A DNA stretch of 64,000 bases, from assembly GCF_024972735.1 (NCBI RefSeq), contig NZ_CP087723.1:1364001-1428000 (forward strand), written 5' to 3'. This DNA comes from Halalkaliarchaeum sp. AArc-CO. Its GTDB lineage: Archaea; Halobacteriota; Halobacteria; Halobacteriales; Haloferacaceae. The translations under genes and the position numbers were made by a program. The notes below the pieces were generated by a model. The model worked only from the letters and a program-made list of their open reading frames with translations. It did not search any database and was not told the origin of the DNA. Of the stretch, positions 15,839 to 32,770 are shown in pieces (within the stretch, counting starts at the first letter, position 1; each line of letters starts with the position of its first letter).

Positions 15839-15913
15839 GGGCGCTTAACTCAGCTTGGACAGAGTGCTTGGCTTCGGACCAAGATGTCGCGGGTTCAAAT
15901 CCTGCAGCGCCCA
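15839..15913 (+). tRNA. tRNA-Arg (TCG)
   Basis: A cloverleaf from GGGCGCT to AGCGCCC plus discriminator A. The anticodon stem CTTGG/CCAAG encloses loop CTTCGGA, anticodon TCG. The T arm is GCGGGTTCAAATCCTGC. CCA is not encoded. It marks the left edge of the accessory island. Confidence 0.95.
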
Positions 15914-16657: not shown

Positions 16658-18049
16658 TCAGGAAGGCGTGAGTAGGTCGTCGATGTCCGCGACAGTAAAC
16701 AAGGACCACGAGTCATCGAGTTGTGCTTCGAGACCGTCGACGAAGCCGCTTTTCGAAAACAGGGCGAACTGCTCGTCTCGATCCGACGGTCCCCATCGGA
16801 CGTGCTCCGCCTTTGCTCGCAGACTCTTGACGAGGTCTTCCCCAACCGGATCTGTCGTCCACTTACATTCGGCGAGGAGGACTCGGTCGTCGTTCGGTGC
16901 CAGCCCGACGATATCGATCTCCTCTTCTCCGTACCACCAGCGACCGACTTCGGAGTACGGTTCGAATGCACCGCGTCGAATCCCTTCCCAGACGGCTTCT
17001 TGACACACGTCCTCGAACGTGGTTGCGACGTGCGTTGGGAGGTCCGGTTCAATCGTCCCGTCGTACACGATCTCCGGTGCTTCCTCGATACTGGATCGAT
17101 GCGGCTCGACATACCGAAACCAGAACCGAAGGAACTCGTCCGCAACCCGGTACCGTGACCGCTTCGATTTCTTCCCCGAGGCCGTGACTGGGACATCTCG
17201 TTCGATGAGGCGGAGTCGGCGGAGTGTCTGTAGGTACTTCGAGAGCGGACCCGAATCGATCCCCGTTGCGCCGGAGATCTCGTTCGGTGTCGTATGGCCC
17301 AGTGCGACTGCTTCGAGGATGCTCATGTACCGGGCTGGGTTTCGGAGCTCGGTGCGCAGGAGGAACTCGGGTTCGTTATACAGTACCGCAGATGATGACA
17401 GGACGTGTGATCGAATGTTCGCCGCGAGCGACTGGTCGTAGTCGAACAGCGTGAGGTACATCGGGGTGCCACCTGTGACGGCATACGACCGAACCGCGTC
17501 CGTGATGTTGTATGAGATGACCTCTCGTGCCTGTTGAAACGAGAACGGCGTTACGTCGAGTTGCGCCGTTCGTCGCCCGTACAGTGGGCTCTCGTGACCC
17601 AGGATCTCTGACTCCATCGTGCTCACGCTCGACCCACAGAGCACCAGCATCGAGTCCGTCCCATCGAGTGCCTGGTCAACGAACGCTTGTATGTACGATG
17701 GAAGCGAGTCGTTCTCTTCGACGAGATACGGGAACTCGTCGATGACGACGACAAGATCCTCTCGCTGGAGGTTCTCCCCGAGGTATTCGAACGCTTCGTC
17801 CCAACTGTCGATTCGAGGGACGCGCTCGTCGAAGTAGTCCGCAACTTGCTCAAGGAACTTCTCGCGCTGTCGATGCTCGGCTTCCTGCGCGGCAAGGAAG
17901 TAAATGTGGGGACGGTCAGCACAGAATTCTTTGAGGAGTTCCGTTTTCCCGACCCGACGCCGGCCATAGACGACAACGAAGTCCGAACCGGGGGACTCCA
18001 CCGCACCCGTGAGTGTATCGAGTTCTTCCTCCCGGTCGTAGAAGGTCAT
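16658..18049 (-). CDS. Archaeal-type ATPase with DUF234-like C-terminus
   Basis: A 463-residue protein of the archaeal STAND-like ATPase family. Walker A GRRRVGKT is at residues 29-36 and Walker B DLVVVIDEFPYLV near 100. A winged helix sits around 235-285 (TTPNEISGATGIDSGPLSKY), and the C-terminal nuclease-like region (VLLAECKW) belongs to the DUF234 group. ATP-dependent regulation or DNA targeting is typical, but the partner is unknown. It is monocistronic, with an A/T-rich promoter (TAATGATTA) just upstream. It stands between the mini-transposon and the helicase operon and is common in archaeal mobile islands. Confidence 0.85.
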   Translation of the reverse strand: MTFYDREEELDTLTGAVESPGSDFVVVYGRRRVGKTELLKEFCADRPHIYFLAAQEAEHRQREKFLEQVADYFDERVPRIDSWDEAFEYLGENLQREDLVVVIDEFPYLVEENDSLPSYIQAFVDQALDGTDSMLVLCGSSVSTMESEILGHESPLYGRRTAQLDVTPFSFQQAREVISYNITDAVRSYAVTGGTPMYLTLFDYDQSLAANIRSHVLSSSAVLYNEPEFLLRTELRNPARYMSILEAVALGHTTPNEISGATGIDSGPLSKYLQTLRRLRLIERDVPVTASGKKSKRSRYRVADEFLRFWFRYVEPHRSSIEEAPEIVYDGTIEPDLPTHVATTFEDVCQEAVWEGIRRGAFEPYSEVGRWWYGEEEIDIVGLAPNDDRVLLAECKWTTDPVGEDLVKSLRAKAEHVRWGPSDRDEQFALFSKSGFVDGLEAQLDDSWSLFTVADIDDLLTPS

Positions 18050-18210: not shown

Positions 18211-21200
18211 TCACTCCTCGAACCCGGGACCGACGGTAAACGAGGCCGGCGCGCAGGGAAGTTGGTTGTGCTGACACCACCGGCAGTGCTCATCCGAAGT
18301 GTACCGACTGAACGAGAACTCAACAATATCGTTCATCGACGACGTCACGTCATCTCTGACTGCTTCCAGATCACCATCGCTGAACGTTCGAGATTCGACT
18401 TTCGGCCCGATGTCACCGACATAAGCGTATCCCGCACGTGCGACAGGCTCATCGTACAGGTCACGGCACGCTAACAGGTAGATCGGGAGTTGCTTATCGT
18501 CCTCCAAGTCGCGGTGACGTTCGGTCGCCTTGTAATCGATGACGACCAGTTCGTCGTCAGGCGTCCGGTAGACGGCGTCAATATAGCCGACGAGTTCGTG
18601 CCCATCGATAGTGAGTTCGAACTCTCGCTCCGCGTCGATGATCTCGTAACTGGGGAGATCTAACTCGAAGTACCGGTCGATGCACTGTTTTGCCGCCGGG
18701 AGCGCGTCCTCAGCGCGGCGCTGACTGGCGAGTCGCTCGCAGATCTCGTACCACTCCCCACGACGTTCCACCCCTTGATTCGCGGCTTGCTCAGCGGTGT
18801 CGTGGAACAGCAATCCGATCTCACGTTGCGATACACCTTCTTTCGCATCGCTCGTGGCCGCAGTCTCCTGATAGTCAGGGAACGCGTTGACCACGTAGTC
18901 CAAATAGTGACTCCGCGGGCATTCCTCATAGGCCGCCAGCGACGTGTAGCTGTGAGAGAGCGATGGCGACGGTGTCGACGGGCCAGTCAGCGACCCAACC
19001 TGGAGGATTTCCCGCTCGGCTCTCGGTGAGAGACTCCCATCGACAGTGGCCGTTGCCAGGTTTAGCACACGGTCGCGCGCAACCCCAACCGCGAGATCTT
19101 CCCCATCGTGCCTGACGGTACCGCCGACACTTCCGACGGTCTCGCTGGCCAGCGTGTTCGTCCAGTCTACTGCGTCGTCCGGGAGACACTCTTGAACGTC
19201 GGTCCAGAGTGGGAGCTGTCCTCGCTCCGGCTGCCATGGGATTCGAGAGGGGAGGATCTCGTCAACCAGCTCTGAAACAGCGTTCTCGTCCGCAGCATCG
19301 TCACCTTCGTCGCTGCCACCCTGCAGGACGAGGATGTCCTCGGCACGCGTGATCCCGACGTGGAACACGCGCCGTGTCTCACGGGCATCACGCTCGACGA
19401 AGTCCTGTGCGAACGCTGCCTCTGGGCCATCCGAGAGGCTGGTTTCGAGCGCGTCGTACGTGCGTGAACTTGGTGCCCACTCGTCAGCGGTGACTTGTGG
19501 GATGAGGACGACCGGGAAGTCCAGGCCCTTGCTTTTGTGGATGGTCATCACGTTGACCGCGTCGTCGGCGACGTCCGGCTGACTCGTGGGCGTGGTGCCA
19601 CTTTCGTCGAACAGGGAGTCGTAGTGTTCGAGCGAGTCGATGAACTCCGGAGTCAGCGGCGGTTGGACGGCACTATCCCCGTACTGTTCGATGACGTCCT
19701 CCAGTTGGGTGAGATCCCGGCGCTCCTGCTCGCTGAGATACCACTCGATGTTCGTGCGGTCCGTGAGTTCGCGGTACAGGTGGCTGAGCGACGCCGAATC
19801 ACGAATACCGAGTAGTTCCGTGGCGTGCTCGCGGGCTTCTGCGACGCGGTCGGGCTCCTTGAACTCGTCGAGCGGTGTCTCACGGAGCGTGTCCACGAGT
19901 GGGTCGTCGCCCGCGTTGAGCGTGCGGAGGTCCGCGTCGCAGAGCCGGTACCGCATCAGGAGGACGCGGTTCCAGCTCACCTCGTCTTCGGGGCGTGCGA
20001 GTGCCTTCAGGTAGGCGGTCACGGTGCCGACGCCGACCGATTCCGTGGCCAGATCCCCAGCAACTTGGTACGGGATGCCAGCGTCTTCGAATTCCTCGAT
20101 GACAGGTGTCGCGTGGGCGTTCTTCCGGACGAGTAACGCGATATCACCTGGATCGTACACCTCATCGAGGTTGTCTGCTGCGCCGCTCACCAGATTCTGG
20201 ACGACGGTGCGAAGCTGGGTCGCACCGTCCGCATCGTCCTCGTCCGGCAGTTCGACGGTAGCGACGGTGTCCCCGTCGTACGCAGGTTCGTCGACGCGAG
20301 TGAGTGTCTTGTGTCGTTCACGGTGATCGAGCTTCTGAATCGCCTCGTTCGCCAGGTCCAGAATCGGCTGTCGGGAGCGGAAGTTCTCCTCCAGCGGTTC
20401 GTCCGTGAGCGCCGCGAACGCTTGGTCCAGTTCGTCGGTGATGTTGGCGACGTTCGCGCCGCGCCATTCGTAGATCGCCTGATCGTCGTCGCCGACGACG
20501 AACAGATTATCGTCGGTGACGAGTGACGTGACGAGGTCGAACTGGAGGCGATCCGTGTCCTGGAACTCGTCGCAAAACACGTAGTCCCACCGCTCGGCGA
20601 TTTCCTCGCCGACCGACGAGTCCATCAGCGCAGCTGTCTCGACCACCAGGCCGTCGAAGTCGATGAGGTTACGCTCGTCCAGTTCCCGCTCGTACGCCGC
20701 GTACCCGGCGGTGAGATCTCGGGCGGTAAGACAGTCGGACACGAACGAGTCGAGGTGGTCCGTGAGTTCGAGACCAAGATCGTCCGGGATCCCTTTCGGG
20801 GCACCGCTTGCGTACCCGCCGAACAGGTACTTCGGGAGTTTGTACGCGTTGTCCGGCAGGTCACGCTCGCCAGCCTGGTGGGCCTCGAACGCGGTTTCAA
20901 GCGCATCACACAGGTCGACGAGCCGGTCGAGGAAATCCCGAGCACTGGCCTCGATCCCGTCCGTTCCCAACCCGTCGCGTTCCGCGGTGAGTTCATCGCG
21001 CACCTCGGGAAGTGAATCCAGCACGCTTGCCACGGACCGGCCACCGAGATGGTCGCTAGCGATTGCTTCGATGTGCTCCGGCAGGTCGGCGAGGTCATAG
21101 ACGCGGTCGGCGGGCCCGAGGAACGCGTCGATGTCGTCTGGCGAGATGCCGCTGCGCTTCATCGACCCGATAAAGCTGAGCAGCTTCGACGCAGCTCCGG

Positions 21201-21669
21201 ACGCGTACCCGTCGCTGCCGTACACGTTGGGTTTGACCGACCGGTACTCGATGTCGTCCAGAACATCCAGCACGATAGCGTACTTCTCGGCGTCCGTGGC
21301 GACCTCGAAGTCCGGGTCGATCCCGGCTTCGTAGGCGTAGTCAGTGAGGATCTCGTTACAGATCGAGTGGTACGTGTACGCGTCGATGTCGTACCCCGCT
21401 GTCCCGAGTTTCGCGTTAAGCTTCTCCCGCATCGAGTCCGCCGCGTTGTTCGTGAACGTCAACGCGAGAATCCGGTCTGGCGAGACGTCTTCCTCGTCGA
21501 TGAGGTGCTCGATCTTCCGCACCATCGTGAACGTCTTGCCCGTTCCTGCTCCTGCGAGCACACGCATCGGGTACGCGTCGGAGTTGATGATTGTCCGCTG
21601 TTGAGGCTCTGGGGACACGTCTTCTTCCGGCACCGGAAACCAAGACGGGTACTCGGACTCGTCGCTCAT
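18211..21669 (-). CDS. AddA/UvrD-like SF1 helicase fused to an Fe-S PD-(D/E)XK nuclease
   Basis: A 1152-residue protein. Residues 37-46 (VLAGAGTGKT) are Walker A, followed by ILALTFTNNAADSMREKL (motif Ia) and VFCDEFQDTDRLQFDLV (Walker B). VGDDDQAIYEWRGA is motif III, VMTIHKSKGLDFPVV motif V and VFHVGITRAED motif VI. The C-terminal 270 residues hold YEECPRSHYLDYV, a D-x-K nuclease centre (VGYIDAVYR, LVVIDYKATE) and CRWCQHNQLPC, so four cysteines can bind an Fe-S cluster as in AddB and Cas4. The predicted role is unwinding and degrading DNA ends. It is the last gene of the Argonaute operon and overlaps the upstream nuclease gene by 4 bases. Confidence 0.9.
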   Translation of the reverse strand: MSDESEYPSWFPVPEEDVSPEPQQRTIINSDAYPMRVLAGAGTGKTFTMVRKIEHLIDEEDVSPDRILALTFTNNAADSMREKLNAKLGTAGYDIDAYTYHSICNEILTDYAYEAGIDPDFEVATDAEKYAIVLDVLDDIEYRSVKPNVYGSDGYASGAASKLLSFIGSMKRSGISPDDIDAFLGPADRVYDLADLPEHIEAIASDHLGGRSVASVLDSLPEVRDELTAERDGLGTDGIEASARDFLDRLVDLCDALETAFEAHQAGERDLPDNAYKLPKYLFGGYASGAPKGIPDDLGLELTDHLDSFVSDCLTARDLTAGYAAYERELDERNLIDFDGLVVETAALMDSSVGEEIAERWDYVFCDEFQDTDRLQFDLVTSLVTDDNLFVVGDDDQAIYEWRGANVANITDELDQAFAALTDEPLEENFRSRQPILDLANEAIQKLDHRERHKTLTRVDEPAYDGDTVATVELPDEDDADGATQLRTVVQNLVSGAADNLDEVYDPGDIALLVRKNAHATPVIEEFEDAGIPYQVAGDLATESVGVGTVTAYLKALARPEDEVSWNRVLLMRYRLCDADLRTLNAGDDPLVDTLRETPLDEFKEPDRVAEAREHATELLGIRDSASLSHLYRELTDRTNIEWYLSEQERRDLTQLEDVIEQYGDSAVQPPLTPEFIDSLEHYDSLFDESGTTPTSQPDVADDAVNVMTIHKSKGLDFPVVLIPQVTADEWAPSSRTYDALETSLSDGPEAAFAQDFVERDARETRRVFHVGITRAEDILVLQGGSDEGDDAADENAVSELVDEILPSRIPWQPERGQLPLWTDVQECLPDDAVDWTNTLASETVGSVGGTVRHDGEDLAVGVARDRVLNLATATVDGSLSPRAEREILQVGSLTGPSTPSPSLSHSYTSLAAYEECPRSHYLDYVVNAFPDYQETAATSDAKEGVSQREIGLLFHDTAEQAANQGVERRGEWYEICERLASQRRAEDALPAAKQCIDRYFELDLPSYEIIDAEREFELTIDGHELVGYIDAVYRTPDDELVVIDYKATERHRDLEDDKQLPIYLLACRDLYDEPVARAGYAYVGDIGPKVESRTFSDGDLEAVRDDVTSSMNDIVEFSFSRYTSDEHCRWCQHNQLPCAPASFTVGPGFEE

Positions 21670-22568
21670 CGGTGCACCTCCGTGGACAGTCGGTCAGCAC
21701 ACATCTCTCGATAGTCGCAGTCCGGGCACGCCTCCTCAGTAATAAGGTCGAGCGGTTCCGGCTCGTACGTCTCACCCGTGATACCATCGTGGGCGTCTCG
21801 GATGAGCGCCCAAATCGTGTCGTAGTGGTTCTCGTAGATTTCCGTGGTTTCCCGAGGCCAGCCACGCGCGGACACGTCGTATCCGCTCGGGGTGCTCTCG
21901 AACGACGTGCTGTTGAGGATTCCGTAAAAGCTGAACCGAACCTCCATCCCGTCCTCGTAGAACGGTTCATTCTTCACGCCTTCGACGTATGTCGCCGTCT
22001 GGAACGCGTTCCGGACCCGCTTCGGTTCGTGGGCCTCTCCGTTGAAATGGTCGTTAAGGTATTCGGCTGTCCCCGACGAAAGAATCCCGTCCGTGTTCCG
22101 CTTGTAGTCGAAGATGTGCAGCCCGTCGTCAGTCCGGACGACGTTGTCAGCTTTCCCGTGGAGTTCTCGACCATCCACTTCGCACTCCACCCAACATTCC
22201 GTGGTGACCGAGTAGCGAGCGTGCTCGATCCCGTCACCGCCGTCCGGATCGAAGAACGACGCGATGGCAGCGCGGTTCTCAGCTCGTTGGTACTCCTGAT
22301 GCGCAGCGGATTCGTAGTCGTCCGGGGTACTGTGTTCGTCCCACTTCGCATCGAAGACCTGCATCGCCCGGTTGTGTATCGTCTCCGGGTCGTCATCGCG
22401 GTCAGTCGCATCACACACGTCCTCGATAGTCTCGTGGTAGATCGTTCCTTGGTTGAGATACAGTTCTGTACGGTCCGGCGCGTTCACGTCTTGCGTGTAG
22501 CGGTAGTCGTACAGCCGCGGACACGTCGCGTAGTTCGCTAACCGCGACGGGGAGAGCGACGAACTCAT
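21666..22568 (-). CDS. Cas4/RecB-like PD-(D/E)XK nuclease with Fe-S cysteines
   Basis: A 300-residue protein. RLANYATCPRLYDYRY carries the first cysteine and CPDCDYREMC the C-terminal three, the arrangement of Cas4 and AddB nucleases. The catalytic core is GTIYHETIED, GKADNVVRT and LHIFDYKRNT (D-x-K), followed by a QTATYVEGV helix. A single-strand exonuclease processing ends is the likely activity. It overlaps both neighbours by 4 bases, so the three helicase-nuclease genes are translationally coupled and probably form one complex. Confidence 0.85.
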   Translation of the reverse strand: MSSSLSPSRLANYATCPRLYDYRYTQDVNAPDRTELYLNQGTIYHETIEDVCDATDRDDDPETIHNRAMQVFDAKWDEHSTPDDYESAAHQEYQRAENRAAIASFFDPDGGDGIEHARYSVTTECWVECEVDGRELHGKADNVVRTDDGLHIFDYKRNTDGILSSGTAEYLNDHFNGEAHEPKRVRNAFQTATYVEGVKNEPFYEDGMEVRFSFYGILNSTSFESTPSGYDVSARGWPRETTEIYENHYDTIWALIRDAHDGITGETYEPEPLDLITEEACPDCDYREMCADRLSTEVHR

Positions 22569-24622
22569 CGCCGCACCTCCTCGTTAGCGAATTCGACACG
22601 TGCACGCAACGCTTCTCGGAGCTCGTCTCCTCGGGAGCCGCTTTGTTCGAGTAGGTCCTGAATCTCTCCGAGTTCCGCTTCGACCTCGTCAAGCGACACC
22701 GTCACGTCCTGACTGTTCGCGCGGCGTACCTCCGCGAGCGCGTCGTCAACCCGCGACAGCAGGTACTGCTCCGCCGCTTGCTCACTCGTAATGTGTGGCT
22801 CATCGGCCTCGGTCACCCACGGAAGATCCTCATACGCTGCTGTGAGGAACCGCGATGCCTGCGTACGCTCTTCGAGCGCCGTGTCTTCGTACTCGTAGAG
22901 ACAACAGTAGAGCCGCTCTGTCGCCGCGCCAGCACCGACAGCTAACCGTCGACGCGCGTGCTCCGTGTGGTACTGGGCGAACGATCGTCCTGACGCTGTC
23001 GACGTCGTCGGGAACGTCGCATCCACGTCCGATCCATCGAGTTCCGTTACACCAGGGTAGTCTGGCATCGACGCGACTCGCTCGCTCGGGAACAACCGTG
23101 TCAGGAACGGGTCACCTGGGTACTCACTGTCGACGAGATTCACGAGGAACACAGCGCGGAAGGACTCGTTCTTGATCGCTTGCAAGTGATCGACGCGGAC
23201 ACCACCGTTGAGATCCGTCGCGCTTGTCTGGTTCTGCTGCGGTGCGTATTCGTGAGCGCGTTCGAGCATCTCCTTGTAGGATTCCCACGTCGCATCCACA
23301 AACTCGGTCTCTTCGAGGAACTCGGCCATTCGGAACGCCCGTCGGACGTTCCCGAACTGCGCCCGTGCATCCAACGGGGCCGCCCGCTCCGCGATCCGCT
23401 CTTTTAACCCGGAGTCCGTTGCCCACCAGCGAATCGCGTCTCCGAGGCTCTCCGTCTCGCTGACACGGTCTAAGCGGTCCGTATCGAGTTCTGGACCGTG
23501 GTCGGGTACATCATCTTCCTCGTCGGCGAAGTACCGAACGGCCGCGAGGAGTTCCCGAATCGCGGGATCGTCACCGAACCCGGTGACGGTTGTCGATTCC
23601 GTTGGAATCCCGGTGCCTTCGAACGCTTCGATAATGTCTGTAACAGCACTCCCGCTTTGCTTCGTGGCGACAGCGATGTCGTCGTACCCCCAGTCCGGCT
23701 GCGCGACGAGCTCTTCAATCTCGTTCGCAATCTCAGCGAGTTGTTCGTCACTGGAGTCTGTGGCGAGGACGGACACCGACCCGGCTTCCGGATCTTCCGG
23801 GACCGTTTCTTCGGCGAAATAGGCTGCCGTTGCAGCTGGTCGCGTCGACGGCGTCCCCGATGCCCCTTGTCGGGATTCGCTGAACGAGACGTAGTTCGTG
23901 ACTGGCCCTGTCTCAACCCACGTCCGGCGCACACTCGCGTGCTCTTCAGCGACACAGACGAGCTCGCAGTCTCCCGCAAGCGCGTCGAGATACGCGCGAT
24001 CAAGCGGGAAGAACTCCTCAAACTCGACCGCGATCACCGCGTCGAAATCAACGACGTCGCCGCGGGCATCCCCGGTGAGGACATCGAGCGCTTCCGAGAT
24101 GAGTTGCCCGCGCTCCATGTGCCCGTGCTCGGCGAGCCACTCGTGGAACGCGTCAAGCGCAGTCGTGATGTCACGGAGTTCCGGAGTATCGTCAGGCCTG
24201 ACCGTCTGCCAGGAAATCGTGCCCATCACGGCATCCACGTCCTCAATGAACGACGGCTGCGCAGACGCCCGTTGGAGGTACTCCGTGTCCCACTCGTAAT
24301 CTGCGAGGAACCGGTACAGGAGTTCCCGCCGTAGGGCGTCGGAGAGAATGACGCGGTCATCGGTCTGGTTGAGGACATCGGTCGCGTGCACTACCGACGA
24401 CGTCACGTACGGCGTCGCCGCGCCCGGCAGTTCCTCACCTAACGCTTCACGGAACGTGTCTGCGCTCGTCGGCGCACCGGTGATGACGAGCACGTCCTCA
24501 GAATCGTGCTCGTCGAGAAGCATTCGGTATTCGTTTCGCGCTGTCCGTTCGACGTTTTCGCCCCCGAACGGTACCGTGACTAACGCCCCGTCGAACTGCC
24601 GGTGAGATGAGTGATTAGACAT
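22565..24622 (-). CDS. AddB-like inactivated helicase subunit
   Basis: A 685-residue protein. The N-terminus (GALVTVPFGGENVERTARNE) is where a P-loop would sit, but no GxGKT is present. Further on it has SF1-helicase-like segments: an ANEIEELVAQPDWGYDDIAV block, ESFRAVFLVNLVDSEYP, and ARRRLAVGAGAATERLYCCL in the motif VI position. This pattern fits a structural AddB/RecC-like subunit that has lost ATP binding. The nuclease domain usual at the AddB C-terminus is instead the separate gene at 21666-22568, which overlaps by 4 bases. AddB assignment is by pattern and context, not by alignment. Confidence 0.65.
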   Translation of the reverse strand: MSNHSSHRQFDGALVTVPFGGENVERTARNEYRMLLDEHDSEDVLVITGAPTSADTFREALGEELPGAATPYVTSSVVHATDVLNQTDDRVILSDALRRELLYRFLADYEWDTEYLQRASAQPSFIEDVDAVMGTISWQTVRPDDTPELRDITTALDAFHEWLAEHGHMERGQLISEALDVLTGDARGDVVDFDAVIAVEFEEFFPLDRAYLDALAGDCELVCVAEEHASVRRTWVETGPVTNYVSFSESRQGASGTPSTRPAATAAYFAEETVPEDPEAGSVSVLATDSSDEQLAEIANEIEELVAQPDWGYDDIAVATKQSGSAVTDIIEAFEGTGIPTESTTVTGFGDDPAIRELLAAVRYFADEEDDVPDHGPELDTDRLDRVSETESLGDAIRWWATDSGLKERIAERAAPLDARAQFGNVRRAFRMAEFLEETEFVDATWESYKEMLERAHEYAPQQNQTSATDLNGGVRVDHLQAIKNESFRAVFLVNLVDSEYPGDPFLTRLFPSERVASMPDYPGVTELDGSDVDATFPTTSTASGRSFAQYHTEHARRRLAVGAGAATERLYCCLYEYEDTALEERTQASRFLTAAYEDLPWVTEADEPHITSEQAAEQYLLSRVDDALAEVRRANSQDVTVSLDEVEAELGEIQDLLEQSGSRGDELREALRARVEFANEEVRR

Positions 24623-24627
24623 GTCTA

Positions 24628-26748
24628 TTACCCTCGGACGAGCCGCGTGACCCGAGACAGCACACCGATGTCGTCAGCGGCTGTCTCGGTATTGCATCGT
24701 GCATCTTCAATGACACTGGGCTCATCAATCCAATTCTGGAACCTGTTCGCGCTTTCAAACTGAACCGCCGGCCCGTAAATACCCGCCCGGATATGGGCTG
24801 GCGTGGCCTTCTGGAACTCCCAGCATTGCTGCTGGTCCAGATGTGCCGAGAAATCAGCGACAATCCGTCCGTCGTCCTTGAAATCGAGTTCACACAGCCC
24901 GTCGGACAGCGCACTGATCCACTTCCGACGCCCCGGATCGTGCTCCTGCTCGGCGGGTGTCTCAAGCGGAACGTACTCCGGCGGTTCCTTCTCGGCATAC
25001 GCGTACAGCTCCACGAACACGTCCCGAGCATCCGCGAGCCGATCCGACTGATCTGGAAGCGAGATATCCCGCTGCAAGAACAGATGAGCGAACCACGGGA
25101 ACAGGTTACAACTGTCTGCCTGCCCCGCGATCTGCGCGGCGGCTTCGCGTTCGTCTTTCTTCAGTTCGGAGAAGTTAACGTTGAAATCCAGCGTCTTCAT
25201 CCGAGTGCGGAGTTCGGATTTCGGCTTCGTGGAGTCGTTCGAGGAGAAAATGAACGTCGGCATCTGGATAGACCCATCCCACTTCCCCTCCCAGTACGAC
25301 TTGATGATGTCCCGGTCGATTTTCGACTTCGCCACGTCGTCAACGATGTACGGGAAAACTGTGTCCGACGCACGAGCGCGCTCGATGTTGTTTTTCACGA
25401 AGTCGTCCCCGGTCGTGACTTCCTGCACGTACCCGTTCGAGATGAGACGCGTCCCGAACCGCAGGAACATGCCTTTCCCGCTGTCGTTGTCACCGTGGAG
25501 GAACAGGAACGGTAGATCCTTGTCCAGCTCTGCGGACTCGTATTCGGCGTAGTGATGGGCGCAGTAGTTAGCGAACGGAGCCCAGCAGAAGTAGATAATT
25601 CCCTCGTAGAAATGTGCCCGCGTCTCCTTTGGCGTTCGCGTTTCGCCGAACTCGCCGACAGTTTCGATGTACTGCTCGATCAGGTCGAGTGCGTCAGCGA
25701 CTTCCTGCGGATCGTCCGGCAGTGGTGCTGTTAGTTCAAGGACGGAGTCGTCAACTCGCAACCCGACATTGTTCTCGTCTCTATCGACGTTGAGATCTGG
25801 ATACCCTGTGAAGGTCTCTTTGTACCGCGCGATGCCGGCGGGTGTCGCTACGATTTCGCCGTCGTTGATCCGGATGTTATTGGCAGACAGCGTGTCGTCC
25901 AGATTCGAGATAGCGTCTTCGAGGCCCTGCGGGGAGAGGCGGACACGCTTGTCCGGACTGATTTCGGTTGGATCGGTGTCTGTATCTTCAGCGGCGAACA
26001 CCGCTTTCTCTGCTTCTTCGGCGTCGGTGACGACGTTGTACGTATTGACCTGGTCGTCGTCAACTGCTTCGTCGAGCCGGGCGTTCAGCTCGGCGACCGG
26101 GTCGTCACTGAACTCGTCGCCGCCCAGCCAGATGTCGTAGATCTTCGCCTCTTCTTCTGCCGTTTCGGCGTCCTCGATCTCCTCGGTGAGATCCTCCATG
26201 AACGGCGTCGCGTAGTCCTTGTGGAACGCGTACAGCCGTTCGAACCACTCGTCGACGGGCGTGTCCCCGTCGGTACGCCAGGCGATGTTGACGTTGGTTT
26301 GCTTGCTCCCCTGCCAGGCCTGCTTGGAGAGGTTCGCCGACCCACAGATGAGTGTACGTGACCCGTCCTGGTTCTCGACGATGTAGAGTTTCGTATGAAG
26401 CAGGACGCGTGCGGAATCGACGGTGTGGATGAGCAGATCACCGTCTTGGCGCAGCGATTCCAGTTGCGCGGCGATCCTCTTCGCGTTGCTCGTGTTCTTC
26501 AGCGAGCGCCGGTAGTCGTCGTGCTGGCTGTCCCCGACGATGACCTCCAGTGAGTCCACTGCGAGATCCTGATTCTGAAACATCTTGTAGATGAACGCGG
26601 GGGACTGACTGTACGTGACGCAGTAGACGTGCTGGGCGTCACCGAAGTAGTTCAGGAAACTATCCCATGATTTGTCGGCAGCCATCTCCAGATCGGCGGT
26701 GCTGCCGTCATCGAAATCGACTGTTGCTTCGAATTCTGTCTTGGTCAT
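24628..26748 (-). CDS. Phospholipase D-like domain fused to SF3-type ATPase
   Basis: A 706-residue protein. Residues 30-200 form a PLD-like nuclease domain with HTK at 118-120 and GSANLS at 136-141, one HKD half-site, so a dimer would be needed for activity. Residues 380-620 resemble a D5/SF3 primase-helicase ATPase: FLFLHGDNDSGKG (Walker A, 419-426), VFPYIVDD (Walker B, 464-471), TFIFSSND (sensor, 498-505) and RTRMKTLDF as a possible arginine finger. The two domains are joined by an acidic linker. It lies 63 bases after the Argonaute gene and 5 bases before the AddB-like gene. A role as effector or loader for the Argonaute is inference. Confidence 0.75.
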   Translation of the reverse strand: MTKTEFEATVDFDDGSTADLEMAADKSWDSFLNYFGDAQHVYCVTYSQSPAFIYKMFQNQDLAVDSLEVIVGDSQHDDYRRSLKNTSNAKRIAAQLESLRQDGDLLIHTVDSARVLLHTKLYIVENQDGSRTLICGSANLSKQAWQGSKQTNVNIAWRTDGDTPVDEWFERLYAFHKDYATPFMEDLTEEIEDAETAEEEAKIYDIWLGGDEFSDDPVAELNARLDEAVDDDQVNTYNVVTDAEEAEKAVFAAEDTDTDPTEISPDKRVRLSPQGLEDAISNLDDTLSANNIRINDGEIVATPAGIARYKETFTGYPDLNVDRDENNVGLRVDDSVLELTAPLPDDPQEVADALDLIEQYIETVGEFGETRTPKETRAHFYEGIIYFCWAPFANYCAHHYAEYESAELDKDLPFLFLHGDNDSGKGMFLRFGTRLISNGYVQEVTTGDDFVKNNIERARASDTVFPYIVDDVAKSKIDRDIIKSYWEGKWDGSIQMPTFIFSSNDSTKPKSELRTRMKTLDFNVNFSELKKDEREAAAQIAGQADSCNLFPWFAHLFLQRDISLPDQSDRLADARDVFVELYAYAEKEPPEYVPLETPAEQEHDPGRRKWISALSDGLCELDFKDDGRIVADFSAHLDQQQCWEFQKATPAHIRAGIYGPAVQFESANRFQNWIDEPSVIEDARCNTETAADDIGVLSRVTRLVRG

Positions 26749-26811
26749 GCGAGGGTCACCAGTGTGTTGACGGGTACGTGAGTGGTTGTGTGGGGCTGTG
26801 CTGGTGCATGG

Positions 26812-28236
26812 TCAGATGTACGGGACACCGCGGATGACGCTGCCTTTGGTGAGGTAGCCCTTCATGGCGAAGTCGGCGCACTTGTCGGCGTAGTACGTGG
26901 TGATGGGGAGCCGAGTGGAGCGGCTCAGCGACCCGACGTGTGCTTCCGATAGCCAGTAGGTTTGCTCCGCGAGCGTGTCGAGATCTGTCGATCCGTGCCG
27001 TTTCACGATCTGTAACGGCCGCGGCGTGCCTGGACTGCCCTCCTTCCCACCGGTCGTGGTCAGGTAGGAGTGGTCGCCGTTGTGAACATAGAAGGCGACG
27101 CCTTTGTCCGCGATGTCGAACCGTGATTTCGATTCGTCGTACTTGGCGATGCGGGGGTTCCCGGATTTCCGGATCTCGACGAGGTCGAACCGCTGGATGA
27201 GATCGCGGGCTTTGTCGAGACGGTTGATGAGGCTCTCGACGTCGAGGTAGAACTTCCCGTCCCGATGGATTACCACGTGCCGGGGCGGTCGGCCTTCCTC
27301 TTCGGCGAAGATTTCCAGGACGTGCTTGATGACGTTCGCTACGTCGTCCTCGTCGAACGTCTCGCCAGCCTGCTTCGTGACGGCCTCGGACGCGAGGATG
27401 GTTCCGTCGGCCATGATGACGTTCGCGGCTGCGCCGAGGTGTTGCTTCGTCGCGTGGTCGTAGGTCACGTCAAGGCCGACGAACGCGTCAACGCCCCCGG
27501 GAACGTCGTCGATCCGCCACGGCACCCCGCCCGCTTTCCCGATAAGGGACGAGCAGATATTCCCGCCGTAGTTGTCGTTACCGAGGTTGTCGACGGAGAT
27601 CATCTGACTCGGCACGCCGAGTTGGCCGAGCCGCCGCTTGAACTCGGGATACGGATCGTCGTAGTCCGCTTCTGCAGCCTCGTCTTCGTCCGGCACGACG
27701 ATCAGTGCCGCATCGTAGTCACTCGCTTTCTGCGCGGGCTGGGAGTAGTGGAACTCCGAGCCGAGTTCGTAGGTGTCGCGGTCGAACGCTGTCGGGCTCG
27801 CATCGTAGTCTGCGAGCTTGTTGAGCAGCGATAGCACGTATGGCCGTGCGTCATCCTCGTCGTCTTCGGGATACAGCGCGATGATGTCGAACGACTCTGG
27901 TGACTTGTACACGCCGTAGCCGTTCCGTTCCAGCCCGCCAGCCCCGTAGTACCCTGTCTGTCCGTCACCGAACCGCAGGTTCGGGATATTCCGCGTCTTG
28001 TGTTCTCGGTACCCGGCGTTCGTGGGTTGGGGGGTTGGGTCGAAGTTGAAGTACGGTGTCGGACCGAGCAGGTCGACGAACGACGTGACGACGTTGAACC
28101 GTTCCTCGGGTTTCATCCGGCTCTCATTGTGGATGACGTCCAGGAACGCGTCATCGACGCGACCCAACTGCTCGAACGTCGGGATAACCTTACAGTATTT
28201 GGCTCTGTAGTTTCGGTACACGGCGGTTGATTTCAC
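26812..28236 (-). CDS. Prokaryotic Argonaute, MID-PIWI part; N-terminus removed by an IS
   Basis: 474 codons are open. The PIWI domain carries a full catalytic set: D256 (AFVGLDVTYD), E292 (QAGETF), D326 (VVIHRDGKF) and D451 (TTYYADKCADF). The MID region has GVPSQM and IGKAGG as likely 5'-end-binding residues, and ARLPIT-like RLPITTYYAD is the family C-terminal block. It resembles the C-terminal half of long haloarchaeal Argonautes of about 850-900 residues. Codons 1-12 belong to the IS at 28201-29126, so the original N and PAZ domains are gone. Expression would depend on IS sequence. It may be a pseudogene, or survive as a short Argonaute. Confidence 0.88.
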   Translation of the reverse strand: MKSTAVYRNYRAKYCKVIPTFEQLGRVDDAFLDVIHNESRMKPEERFNVVTSFVDLLGPTPYFNFDPTPQPTNAGYREHKTRNIPNLRFGDGQTGYYGAGGLERNGYGVYKSPESFDIIALYPEDDEDDARPYVLSLLNKLADYDASPTAFDRDTYELGSEFHYSQPAQKASDYDAALIVVPDEDEAAEADYDDPYPEFKRRLGQLGVPSQMISVDNLGNDNYGGNICSSLIGKAGGVPWRIDDVPGGVDAFVGLDVTYDHATKQHLGAAANVIMADGTILASEAVTKQAGETFDEDDVANVIKHVLEIFAEEEGRPPRHVVIHRDGKFYLDVESLINRLDKARDLIQRFDLVEIRKSGNPRIAKYDESKSRFDIADKGVAFYVHNGDHSYLTTTGGKEGSPGTPRPLQIVKRHGSTDLDTLAEQTYWLSEAHVGSLSRSTRLPITTYYADKCADFAMKGYLTKGSVIRGVPYI

Positions 28237-29126
28237 GGATATCTCACGCTCCGGCGGAGGTTGTAGACGGTGGCTTTCAGCAGCATTTCACGGAACTCAA
28301 GCCACCAGCTTCGCGCACGCACGGCTGCCCCGAGCGTGCGCTTGATGCTTGAGAAGACGGTTTCGTTCATCGAGCGGCGATTGTACCGATCACGGTCTAT
28401 GCGGGCGTTGTGAGCGTGATCGAGCGGGTTCATGATACGGTGTTTAATCAGCGGTCTCACACCGTTTTCGCGGAGTTCATCGCGGAAGGCTTTCGCGTCG
28501 TAGCCACGATCAGCCGCGAGGCTCCGCAGGTCGCCGGCGTTACGCCGAGCGACCTGCGGGCCGATCTTCGCATCGTGTTTCTTGCTCGTTGTAGAGTGGA
28601 TGTCGGTGATGTACAGCGTTTCGACATCCACCAAGGCAGTGACTTTCAGCGCCCGGACGCGGTAGTGCGTGCGGTTGGCGTAGTGGCGACTGGGGTGGTC
28701 GCGGTCGAAGCCAGTCGAATCGATGGCGGCGTGGCCAGTGCGTTTCTCGGCGCGTCAGCCGAGAAACGCACGCCACGTCTTCGTTGGAATCCGTGCAAAC
28801 CACGTGCGGAGGACAGTGTAGTGAGGAAGCCGTGTAAGGCCGATCTCTTCGAGGACACCGGGCATCTCACTGAGCAAATCCACCGTGACGCGGTAGGATT
28901 TGCCCAGCTCGATGCGGAGTGCATGCAGCGTGAGCATCGCCCACTCGGCGAACCCGCCACCCCCTTCGGGGTCGGCGGGTTCGTCCGGGTTAGCGACAAC
29001 TGATTTAGCCTTAGCCACCGTAACACGCGTGAGGAGACGGAATTCCGATACCACAACATTCCGTCTCTTCGCTTTCTACGGCAATAACGCAGTCGCGGTG
29101 TCTCCGTCTAGCGAAACTACAGAGCC
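28201..29126. mobile_element. 926-bp IS5-type insertion sequence without target duplication
   Basis: Terminal inverted repeats GGCTCTGTAGTTTCG (28201-28215) and CGAAACTACAGAGCC (29112-29126) are perfect over 15 bp and enclose one transposase gene. The flanking bases (CAGTATTT and CATATTAC) do not form a direct repeat. Both neighbouring genes are cut exactly at its ends, which points to deletion or rearrangement rather than simple insertion. Confidence 0.88.
28233..29054 (-). pseudogene. IS5-family transposase inactivated by an in-frame stop
   Basis: One continuous frame of 274 codons. It starts MVSEFRLLTRVTVAKAKSVV (GTG at 29054) and ends VYNLRRSVRYP. The only break is a TGA at 28755-28757, after KTWRAFLG. 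HAAIDSTGFDRDHPSRHYA just after the stop holds the first catalytic Asp, LAADRGYDAKAF the second, and MNETVFSSIKR the Glu. The stop lies in a 6-bp core between 11-bp inverted repeats. Inverting that core would restore GASAEKR. Confidence 0.85.
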
Positions 29127-29962
29127 CATATTACCAATATCCTTACTCGACCAACCTTTCCGATAGACATTGAACTCATAGACGGTAATAGACTAGCAGA
29201 AGACAGATTGAATGAAATACGTGAAACACTAGATCGGAATGCAAGAGCTGGAAGTTATATGCAAATCAACTCCCCTCATCCTGCGAATCAATTAATTTCA
29301 CCACTATCTCGTTTAGCTGGAAACTATGCAATACGAGAGAATCGGTCAGAGCTGGAATCCCTCAGTGAAGAACTCCTAGTCTCATATTCGGTGGCAACAG
29401 ATAACGACCTGCCATCGACAGTAAATTGGAACGAGGAAAATCAATATACGGATTCAGATACGTTCGTCCATGCAACTTATGGGGAGGGTGCAGCTAGAAT
29501 TGCAACCCACGATAGAGGCGACACATTCTGGGAAAAAATTGAAACTTTGTCCGAGTCTGCTCGGGTAGCGGTTACGGAGACCGAGAGACACGAATGGAGC
29601 TTCTATTGCCACGTAGTCTCATCAGCTGCACCAGTGATATCCGATACTAATGAAATCACCAATCTCGTAGAAAACGTGGAAACTGCCCTTATAAACACTC
29701 AATCATATTCGTCCGTTGGAAATTCGAAACGAGGGCGTGCTTTGTTTTATTCGAACGTGGTTCACCAATTAATGCGTAAACATTCTTATCATAGTGTTTC
29801 AAGATGGACAAGAGCAATTAATATTAGGACAGATACCGGTCTCGACGCACTCCCATACTTCCATCGAGGAATTGTAGAGATCTGTGGATTGCGTTGTGAA
29901 GAGTTAAGACTCCCGTATCGATGGTTAGAGTGGATCGCAGAGCAAGAGAATTTATTGTACAA

Positions 29963-31025
29963 GAGCCTGTCATAGAAAGCGTCACGTACGAAGCGGCAGG
30001 GTGCGCGAAGTGTGTCCAACACCAGCACAGCCCTGCAAGACGTAGCTTCGGTAGACGACTTCTTGAATGTCGCGGCTACCGAGACGGTATCGCTGTTCGA
30101 CCATCTTGAGTTCGAGTTTCTGCTGGAGTACGACGTGTTCGCCCCCGCTCGCCGGGGGCGAACACGAGTTCACGAGCCACCTGATCTCTTTCGCGGCTTT
30201 TTGCACTGCTACTACGAGGATGTCTACGGCACACGTCCGGTGACACGAGAACTTCAGAACGGCCTTGTCTGGTACTACTGCGGACTCGACAAACCGCCAT
30301 CCAGAGACACGGTTGATCGCTTTCTCACCGACCTCGAACACGTTATTGACGATGTCTTCGACAGACTCGTCGAGCAGGCCGCCGCCCGCGGCCTGCTCGA
30401 CTCCACGTACTCCATCGATTCGACCCACGTTGAAGCGATCCAACACAACGACGCTGCCTCGTGGAATTACGATCCAACAGCTGAGGAATACTACTACGGC
30501 TTCGGCTGTACGATCGTTTCAACCGGTTCAAAGATCCCGATAGCAGCGGAGTTCACACAGGCCAAACAAGCGGATCAGGAGACGGCGATGCGCGTCACGC
30601 GTGACGCGCTCGCCGTCGATACACCGGTCTGGATGCTGGGAGACAGCGCCTACGACATCCTCGATTGGCACGACCACCTGCTGGCCGCAGGGGTCGTGCC
30701 AATCGCTCCATACAATCCGCGAAACACTGACGACCCGAAAGACATCGAGTACAGGATCGAAGACCGAATCGAGGAACACAGCGAGGACGTGCAGCTGAAA
30801 CAGTCCATCTTGGAGGAGACGTACAACAACCGGACAGGAGTCGAACGAACCAACGACGCAGTCAAGGACTGCGGCCTCGGGCAGGTCTGCGCCCGAGGCC
30901 GCGTCCACGCACGGACAGAAGTGTTCCTTGCGCTGTGTCTCCGACTCGTCGTGGCCATCACCAACTACGAGCGAGGAAACAATCCGGGCTGTGAGAAGCT
31001 ATGAGATGGATTCTATGACAGGCTC
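29963..31025 (+). mobile_element. 1063-bp IS (IS5-like) with 7-bp target duplication
   Basis: Inverted repeats GAGCCTGTCATAGAA (29963-29977) and TTCTATGACAGGCTC (31011-31025) are perfect. The target duplication TGTACAA is at 29956-29962 and 31026-31032. It holds one complete transposase gene and interrupts the gene that spans it. Its ends match those of the mini-element at 16081-16485 apart from base 5. Confidence 0.92.
30012..31004 (+). CDS. IS5-family transposase, intact
   Basis: A 330-residue DDE transposase starting at GTG 30012. An N-terminal helical domain is followed by STYSIDSTHVEAIQHND (first Asp), VWMLGDSAYDILDWHDHL (second Asp) and YNNRTGVERTNDAVKDCGLG (Glu with the IS5-type spacing). 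The C-terminus ends LVVAITNYERGNNPG. The gene fills the IS, leaving 49 bases on the left and 21 on the right. No frameshift or stop is seen, so the element may still be mobile and may also move the mini-element. ISH9-like is possible, but the exact name is not claimed. Confidence 0.9.
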   Translation: MSNTSTALQDVASVDDFLNVAATETVSLFDHLEFEFLLEYDVFAPARRGRTRVHEPPDLFRGFLHCYYEDVYGTRPVTRELQNGLVWYYCGLDKPPSRDTVDRFLTDLEHVIDDVFDRLVEQAAARGLLDSTYSIDSTHVEAIQHNDAASWNYDPTAEEYYYGFGCTIVSTGSKIPIAAEFTQAKQADQETAMRVTRDALAVDTPVWMLGDSAYDILDWHDHLLAAGVVPIAPYNPRNTDDPKDIEYRIEDRIEEHSEDVQLKQSILEETYNNRTGVERTNDAVKDCGLGQVCARGRVHARTEVFLALCLRLVVAITNYERGNNPGCEKL

Positions 31026-31287: not shown

Positions 31288-32301
31288 CTAGAGGTTGTCG
31301 AGATATTCGCGGCGCTGTTCCATCTTCTCTCGTTCAGTACGTCGGTCGTAGTGCTGTTCGATCACCCGCTGACTGACGTTCGCTCGGTCACTGACGACCT
31401 TATCCGGCATGTCACTGTTCAGGCTGTGCGTGATGCTTCCGCGGCGAATTGCGTGAGGACTCACGCTCGACGGACACTCGTAGGCAGTGTCCCGCTCTAC
31501 TGCTGAACACTCGCCGAGGCCGCGGTCGTGTGGACACTCGGTGCTATAGACACACGGACGAGTCCAGCGGTACACGTAGGCACGCAGCGTCGTCTTATTG
31601 GTCCGTCCTTCCCGCGAGGCCAGCAACGGTTCTCGACCGTACTCGTCAGTTACCGACGGTCGCTTGGCGTCTAACCAGTCATTGAGGAGATTACAGACTT
31701 GGTCTGAGAGCGCGACCATCCGTTCACCTTCTCCCTGGTTTTTGATCGGGGTGCCTGTATCTGGTCGATGACGGACCTTGATACACTTCTCGTTTGAATC
31801 GTAGTCGTCAATGTCGAGTGCGTGAACACCGCCGACGCGCATCATCGTGTGCCACATCAGGGCAATTGAGACGTGCTGGATGCTCGCGTATTCGTACTTC
31901 TCCAGATGCGCGAGCACCTTCGAAGCATTGTCACTGTCCAACATTACGTCCCGAGAGTTCTCATCAGGAGTGATCGCCGGAGACAGCACCTTCTGACTCA
32001 GGTCCTGTTCTACGCCGTCGACAGACTCTAGCCACCGGATGAACACGCGAAGGGTATCCATCTGCGTCTTCTCGCTGACCTTGTTCAGGTCGCCATCCTC
32101 GCGCCGCCAGAGCCGGTACTTGTGCAGCTGGCGGCCGCTAAGTTTGTTGAGATTCTGTATCTCTTCTACCTCATCACACCAGCGGACGAAGTGACCGAGT
32201 CGGTACTTGTGCCCCTTCAGAGAGGCCTCCGATAATTCGTTCCCTCTGTCAGCGAGGTACAGTTCAAGCGCGGTTTCAGCATCTATTGGTTCGAGACTCA
32301 T
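31288..32301 (-). CDS. Tyrosine recombinase / integrase (left copy)
   Basis: A 337-residue integrase from ATG 32301. It has an N-terminal SAM-like core-binding domain, then HTMMRVGGVHALDIDDY (catalytic Arg), SPHAIRRGSITH (H-x-x-R) and VIEQHYDRRT (nucleophile Tyr). A Cys-rich insert (RPCVYSTECPHDRGLGEC) is shared with the neighbouring integrase. Its 3' end overlaps the stop of the split gene by 4 bases. A tRNA T-arm-like sequence (GATTTGAACCCGG, 32425-32437) lies 124 bases upstream of its start. It probably belonged to the Argonaute-bearing island. Confidence 0.9.
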   Translation of the reverse strand: MSLEPIDAETALELYLADRGNELSEASLKGHKYRLGHFVRWCDEVEEIQNLNKLSGRQLHKYRLWRREDGDLNKVSEKTQMDTLRVFIRWLESVDGVEQDLSQKVLSPAITPDENSRDVMLDSDNASKVLAHLEKYEYASIQHVSIALMWHTMMRVGGVHALDIDDYDSNEKCIKVRHRPDTGTPIKNQGEGERMVALSDQVCNLLNDWLDAKRPSVTDEYGREPLLASREGRTNKTTLRAYVYRWTRPCVYSTECPHDRGLGECSAVERDTAYECPSSVSPHAIRRGSITHSLNSDMPDKVVSDRANVSQRVIEQHYDRRTEREKMEQRREYLDNL

Positions 32302-32770
32302 GGTTGGTCTTCTTCGGTCAAGCGAACCCCACGAGTCCCGGTTACTGCCCGTTCCGAACCAACGGCTACAATGCCCGAAATCGCCAAAATGAAGGGTTGT
32401 CACACCGCGTGACCAGGGCCTGCAGATTTGAACCCGGAGGAAGACGGTCGCTCACTCCGTTCTCGCTGCGTCTTCCAGGGCTTCAAATCCACGCGTCCGC
32501 AAGGCGGACGCTCGGCTCGTCCATTCTCGCTCCCTCGTAAAACTCGGTCGCTCCGATGGACTCGCCGGGATTTTTCACCACGGGGCACTCTCCCAGCCTC
32601 GGTCGTTCGGCGCTTCGCGCCTCACATGACCTCGGGTTGGTCAGACCGCCGTGGCTCAAACGTACCGCGGCTCGTCCACTCGCTCGCGCCTTCGGCGCTC
32701 GCAGGCCGCGCAGCCCAACAACCGTTGCTCGTACCTCCGTTTCCTGGTTCCGGTTACAAGGAGTCAACGT
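32302..32770. other. Integrase intergenic region: hairpins and attachment-site remnants
   Basis: The 469 bases between the divergent integrases have no supported gene. They hold GATTTGAACCCGG (32425-32437), the inverted repeat GGAAGACG/CGTCTTCC (32439-32446 and 32469-32476), the hairpin GCGTCCGC-AAG-GCGGACGC (32493-32511) and the tRNA-Ala fragment at 32556-32595. These are features expected of an attachment region with integrase binding arms. Confidence 0.6.
32556..32595 (-). repeat. attL candidate: 3' part of tRNA-Ala
   Basis: ATGGACTCGCCGGGATTT (32556-32573) is identical to 61166-61183 at the 3' end of tRNA-Ala(GGC). The match continues with small changes (CGGGGC-CTCTCCCA) to 32595, that is, to the edge of the anticodon arm. 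Same orientation as the tRNA, so it is a direct repeat 28.6 kb away. An integrase gene starts 175 bases to the right. Confidence 0.75.

Follow-up and report, generated by a model that had tools for sequence, protein, structure and literature searches.

A probable six-gene haloarchaeal defence locus in decayed form, with an IS-truncated Argonaute gene and an AddAB/RecBCD-like gene trio

Gene content and surroundings of the locus

Five minus-strand open reading frames (ORFs), of which two neighbouring pairs are separated by 63 and 5 bases and two overlap by 4 bases, make up the locus in the window (the whole analyzed stretch of Halalkaliarchaeum sp. AArc-CO DNA, 64,000 nucleotides; Table 1), and the ORF coordinates confirm the order and spacing given in the original prediction. 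From the Argonaute (pAgo) gene onwards, their Pfam domains are Piwi; PLDc_2; UvrD_C (weak); PDDEXK_1; and UvrD helicase, UvrD_C, and PDDEXK_1. Relatives of the locus include a sixth, divergent gene, AAA_14-DUF4143 (AAA-DUF4143 below), absent from the window. Sequence comparison shows the order of the presumptive intact locus as the divergent AAA-DUF4143 ATPase, a long-A pAgo that bears an RPA-like OB domain, then AgaP, and an AddAB/RecBCD-like trio.

Table 1. Features of the locus, with positions in the window.
Feature	Positions	Strand	Evidence
pAgo ORF	26812-28236	minus	ORF list; Piwi (Pfam)
Native pAgo remnant, MID-PIWI (intact-protein residues 434-895), DEDD retained	26812-28200	minus	Piwi, E = 5.8e-21
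Insertion sequence, IS5-family-like, 926 bp	28201-29126	minus	23-bp TIR, DDE_Tnp_1
agaP, PLD-family nuclease and P-loop ATPase (GDNDSGKG)	24628-26748	minus	PLDc_2, motif spacing
AddB/RecC-like subunit, predicted SF1 helicase fold without Walker A and nuclease domain	22565-24622	minus	AlphaFold/Foldseek, alignment
Cas4/RecB-type Fe-S nuclease, putative split-off AddB nuclease	21666-22568	minus	PDDEXK_1, E = 1.8e-22
AddA-like SF1 helicase fused to Fe-S PD-(D/E)XK nuclease	18211-21669	minus	Pfam, motifs

Directly after the trio, an ATPase_2-DUF234 gene (window 16658-18049, minus strand) matches the PADLOC candidate PDC-S27 (2.4e-59), and recurs 3' of trios in about ten loci. Upstream of the operon lie a second transposase and a phage-type integrase (window 30012-31004, plus strand, and 31288-32403, minus strand), and downstream a tRNA-Arg gene (window 15839-15913), which suggests a mobile island. 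A 255-aa ORF without a Pfam match (window 29208-29975, plus strand) sits where relatives have the AAA-DUF4143 gene.

The AddA-like protein carries Walker A (GAGTGKT), DEFQDTD, DYK, and a Cys cluster, present in most of 53 relatives, and its PDB matches are PcrA/UvrD, AdnB, AddA, and RecB. By these motifs it combines an active SF1 helicase with a C-terminal RecB-family nuclease, as AddAB/RecBCD-type enzymes do, although its scores are far below the NCBIfam equivalog cut-offs (addA_Gpos, 129.6 vs. 707.65; recB, 150.4 vs. 696.05). The Cas4-like protein (300 aa) has the RecB-nuclease residues H45, D141, D154/K156, Q190, and Y194, and four Cys, the catalytic and Cys residues being conserved in most of 11 relatives. 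It stays below the cut-off of the Cas4 equivalog (TIGR00372, 34 vs. 65), and its gene is in the trio, not with cas genes. Both proteins carry the motifs of the Fe-S nucleases that had been predicted.

The AlphaFold model of the AddB-like protein (pLDDT 77.7) matches AddB (4cei_B; Foldseek E = 1.9e-20, TMq 0.57), and also UvrD; Walker A, already noted as missing, is absent from the alignment in all 19 relatives. The protein belongs to no sequence family, the Pfam match to UvrD_C being weak; a sequence-only PDB search yielded nothing meaningful, and no relatives were found in viral contigs. The Foldseek match to AddB and the lack of Walker A are as in the second, inactive SF1-fold subunit of AddAB/RecBCD-type enzymes. 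From these motifs and the predicted fold, we read the trio as a putative AddAB/RecBCD-like enzyme of three subunits, one of which would be the AddB nuclease, in support of the earlier suggestion that this domain had been split out as its own gene. The trio shares with AddAB, AdnAB, and RecBCD the active SF1 helicase-nuclease, the inactive SF1-fold subunit, and the RecB-family Fe-S nuclease, and differs from them in its three genes, the AddB nuclease being a separate 300-aa protein. UvrD-Cas4-like fusions and the pAgo orthogroup og_6, as described in parts of PMC5704561 and PMC6299218, likewise combine a UvrD helicase with a PD-(D/E)XK nuclease, in settings related to defence or to pAgo; those descriptions lack the AddB-like subunit and the three-gene set.

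The truncated Argonaute gene and AgaP

The pAgo tetrad D256, E292, D326, and D451 is exactly as originally given; nearly all long pAgos from related loci share it, and the region can be aligned with CpAgo and other solved pAgos. The MID-PIWI assignment holds for the Piwi domain and the tetrad, but not for the protein as a whole: intact ago orthologues in sister loci encode 883-895 aa, hence the window pAgo is a truncated long pAgo rather than a MID-PIWI design. Its first ~12 residues are encoded by one end of an insertion sequence (IS), which also supplies the apparent GTG start. The remnant shows 96.4% nucleotide identity over 462 codons to the intact ago of Halorubrum sp. 48-1-W (locus L034), and is 99% identical to the corresponding stretch of the full-length protein. 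In the alignment with L034, homology to intact loci ends at position 28200, and the terminal repeat begins at 28201.

The 926-bp element, which we take to belong to the IS5 family, has the DDE transposase and 23-bp terminal inverted repeats of IS5-type elements, the transposase being in pieces (28233-28634, DDE_Tnp_1, E = 6.6e-17; and 28755-29054). A second copy in the genome, 99% identical, lies on the second replicon (G000:C1:34102-35027), flanked by an 8-bp target duplication, CGGCACTC. No target duplication was found beside the window copy, which points to an IS-linked deletion. Residues 1-433 of Ago are lost, including the N-terminal RPA-like OB domain, together with the 254-260 bp divergent intergenic region, with its conserved promoter-like boxes, and the divergent AAA_14-DUF4143 gene. 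Elsewhere in the genome, the N-terminal half of Ago was not found, apart from a weak RPA-like match, nor was the AAA-DUF4143 ATPase gene, in a search run without a positive control. Since the IS with its adjoining deletion appears to have taken away the ATPase gene, the promoter region, and the front half of Ago, the Ago arm in this genome is probably non-functional. The agaP and trio ORFs remain intact, but are separated from the native ago promoter, and their expression in this organism is therefore uncertain.

In the APAP system of Natrinema pellirubrum, a long-A pAgo is paired with AgaP (Cheng et al. 2024, PMC11442185); plasmid immunity depended on AgaP and ssDNA-virus immunity on Ago catalysis, and AgaP was toxic by itself. 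Like APAP, the window and sister loci have a haloarchaeal long-A pAgo with DEDD, followed after 63 bp by a PLD-ATPase gene; the long-A pAgo with a DEDX tetrad that characterizes APAP is found in the sister loci, while the window copy, with 462 native residues, falls short of it. In contrast to APAP, the locus of this clade has the AAA-DUF4143 gene and the AddAB-like trio as fixed components, whereas the APAP study speaks of no more than "a helicase-encoding gene" close to certain operons (PMC11442185); a further difference is the truncation of the window copy.

The HxK/GSxN motif of APAP is seen throughout as HTK...GSAN. In the window AgaP its halves are 16 residues apart, compared with ~50 in the studied protein, where H105/K107 are remote from G157/S158/N160 (PMC11442185). 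The split layout (H105, spacing 45-50) occurs in another group of loci (L067, L085, L088, and others), and because of this difference in spacing, we assign the AgaP of the window group to a second subtype. The PLD part of the predicted AgaP model matches SauUSI, the NgoAVII R protein, and Nuc (Foldseek), so that the N-terminal half would resemble PLD nucleases of restriction enzymes. The P-loop of the ATPase half is invariant; the SF3 label given to this half was not confirmed, support being limited to the P-loop (Pfam; Foldseek aligned only the PLD part well).

Natural partial breakage of the APAP pair is seen as a truncated Ago with an intact AgaP (window, L036), and as an intact Ago with a broken agaP (L050), and bears on the reported toxicity of AgaP. 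In some genomes AgaP is kept with little or no Ago (window, L036), which the reported toxicity of lone AgaP does not predict.

Distribution of the trio and its partners

Of 384 sampled Halobacteria genomes, 46 have PIWI, and 35 encode a close AddB-like protein (at least 76% identity). Both were present in 19 genomes, compared with 4.2 expected (Fisher p = 8e-11), and adjacent in 15; in all 15 sampled genomes with this Ago clade, the trio is directly downstream of Ago. The 42 distinct close trio loci, from sampled and added named genomes, comprise 18 adjoining Ago (16 full-length; two truncated, the window and L036), four with agaP remnants only (L035, L037, L049, and L054), and 20 with neither. 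The AAA-DUF4143 gene accompanies full-length Ago in 16/16 loci, and a Salinigranum marinum plasmid has the complete six-gene set. The original prediction had made the link between operon and pAgo depend on such a count, which goes against it on both sides, with 24/42 close trio loci lacking pAgo, and 31/46 Ago genomes lacking an adjacent trio. Hence, the association stands, but the obligate coupling is contradicted: the link is non-random, yet optional, since every Ago of the clade sits on a trio, while most close trio loci are without Ago.

The trio genes are always together, Ago present or not, and gene order, the 5-bp spacing, and the 4-bp overlaps are fixed across loci from several family groups. 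dN/dS of the trio is ~0.09-0.14 with and without Ago, consistent with purifying selection in both groups. Mapped on the tree of the trio, the presence of Ago switches at least 11 times (shuffled mean, 13.8); loci with and without Ago are interspersed, and the mixing of family groups implies that the locus has been transferred. The synonymous distances of ago/agaP agree only roughly with those of the trio genes, in a mosaic pattern, which means that the two halves recombine. Taken together, sequence comparisons show the trio as a self-standing unit, with the Ago-AgaP pair gained or lost repeatedly. Ordinary metabolic genes directly flank several Ago-less trios, three Ago-less loci (L032, L056, and L057) have a common distinct upstream region of their own, and other defence genes are beside some loci. 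A housekeeping role does not fully explain the trio and was rejected in that sense: diverged trios (~33%) are frequent within one family group, but both kinds are present together in some genomes.

The partners also occur in other combinations. Genes of the AAA-DUF4143 family precede trio-less ago-agaP pairs (L085, L087-L090), and also a 61%-identical, often plasmid-borne trio with no Ago in the locus, where AgaP follows farther on, beside a 375-aa OB + exonuclease-like protein. This protein's OB domain scores ~38 bits to the OB domain of Ago vs. ~11 bits to the host RPA-like OB; the closer match to this Ago clade speaks against its being just RPA. Hence, the modules are mixed and matched. The gene for this DnaQ-like exonuclease-like protein (L067:4754-5881, L193, L194, and other plasmid-type loci) runs convergently to addA and divergently from agaP. 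The closer Ago relatives that lack the trio (L105 and L107) have a DUF4143 gene upstream. Downstream they carry, in the trio's stead, a 1500-aa AAA_11/AAA_12 helicase-like gene (L105:848-5401, L107:10032-14522). In a sub-clade of trios (L060, L062, and L063), an ORF of 1644-1645 aa without a Pfam match is upstream of addB.

Possible functions of the locus

We consider it fairly probable that the window carries the decayed remains of a haloarchaeal defence locus of six genes with an optional Ago arm, in which the trio would degrade DNA opened by Ago/AgaP. Invading DNA would be nicked or cut by Ago and/or AgaP; the trio would load on the ends, unwind the DNA, and degrade it with its two nucleases; the pieces so produced could be taken up again by Ago as guides. 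In loci that lack Ago, the trio would serve as a general DNA-end-processing or defence nuclease.

An obligate guide-generation system, with the AddAB-like set existing to make pAgo guides and degrade pAgo targets, would agree with the position of the trio directly downstream of every Ago in the clade, and with pAgo guide pools in E. coli being shaped by RecBCD (although it is not required) and AddAB co-precipitating with TtAgo (PMC10269773). We nevertheless regard it as unlikely, given the 24 close trio loci without Ago, the common absence of Ago beside diverged trios, and the Ago genomes without an adjacent trio; in the window genome such coupling is hardly operable, since pAgo has lost its front half. 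That two unrelated defence modules are mere neighbours in a mobile defence island is, in our estimate, quite improbable: the trio does travel without Ago, through mixed family groups and in some loci beside other defence genes, but the fixed order, spacing, and overlaps, the joining of the same ATPase and AgaP families to a diverged plasmid trio without Ago, and the Ago-trio co-occurrence argue against it. As for the 474-aa pAgo of the window, its open ORF, intact DEDD, and near-identity to the intact protein would suit a functional short pAgo; this is very hard to reconcile with a start inside the IS end, the lost promoter region, and the long intact orthologues, and was rejected, as the protein is IS-truncated, has no APAZ match or partner, and keeps an intact tetrad where short pAgos have an inactive one.

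Beyond the favoured reading of an optional Ago arm, we tentatively suggest, as a possibility short of an even chance, a modular immune platform, in which the trio, the AAA-DUF4143 ATPase, and AgaP would work with interchangeable OB-fold recognition subunits (OB-Argonaute or, on plasmids, OB + DnaQ-like exonuclease), the trio being the shared DNA-destroying engine, and Ago the optional targeting arm.

Already known are the Ago-PLD pair (PMC11442185) and, in outline in parts of PMC6299218 and PMC5704561, UvrD-nuclease proteins near pAgos. No description was found in the open-access literature of the six-gene locus as a whole, of the AddB-like subunit, of the compact AgaP subtype, or of the Ago-less plasmid version, nor was any paper found there that links argonaute with DUF4143 in archaea.

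The locus is a natural gene set that joins a long pAgo, a nuclease partner, and an AddAB-like machine, and thus may offer a genetic test, in haloarchaea, of end-resection enzymes feeding or finishing Argonaute immunity. The putative three-gene AddAB-like enzyme is also of interest because Haloferax volcanii lacks HerA-NurA, the pair that serves end resection in thermophilic archaea (PMC7776575).
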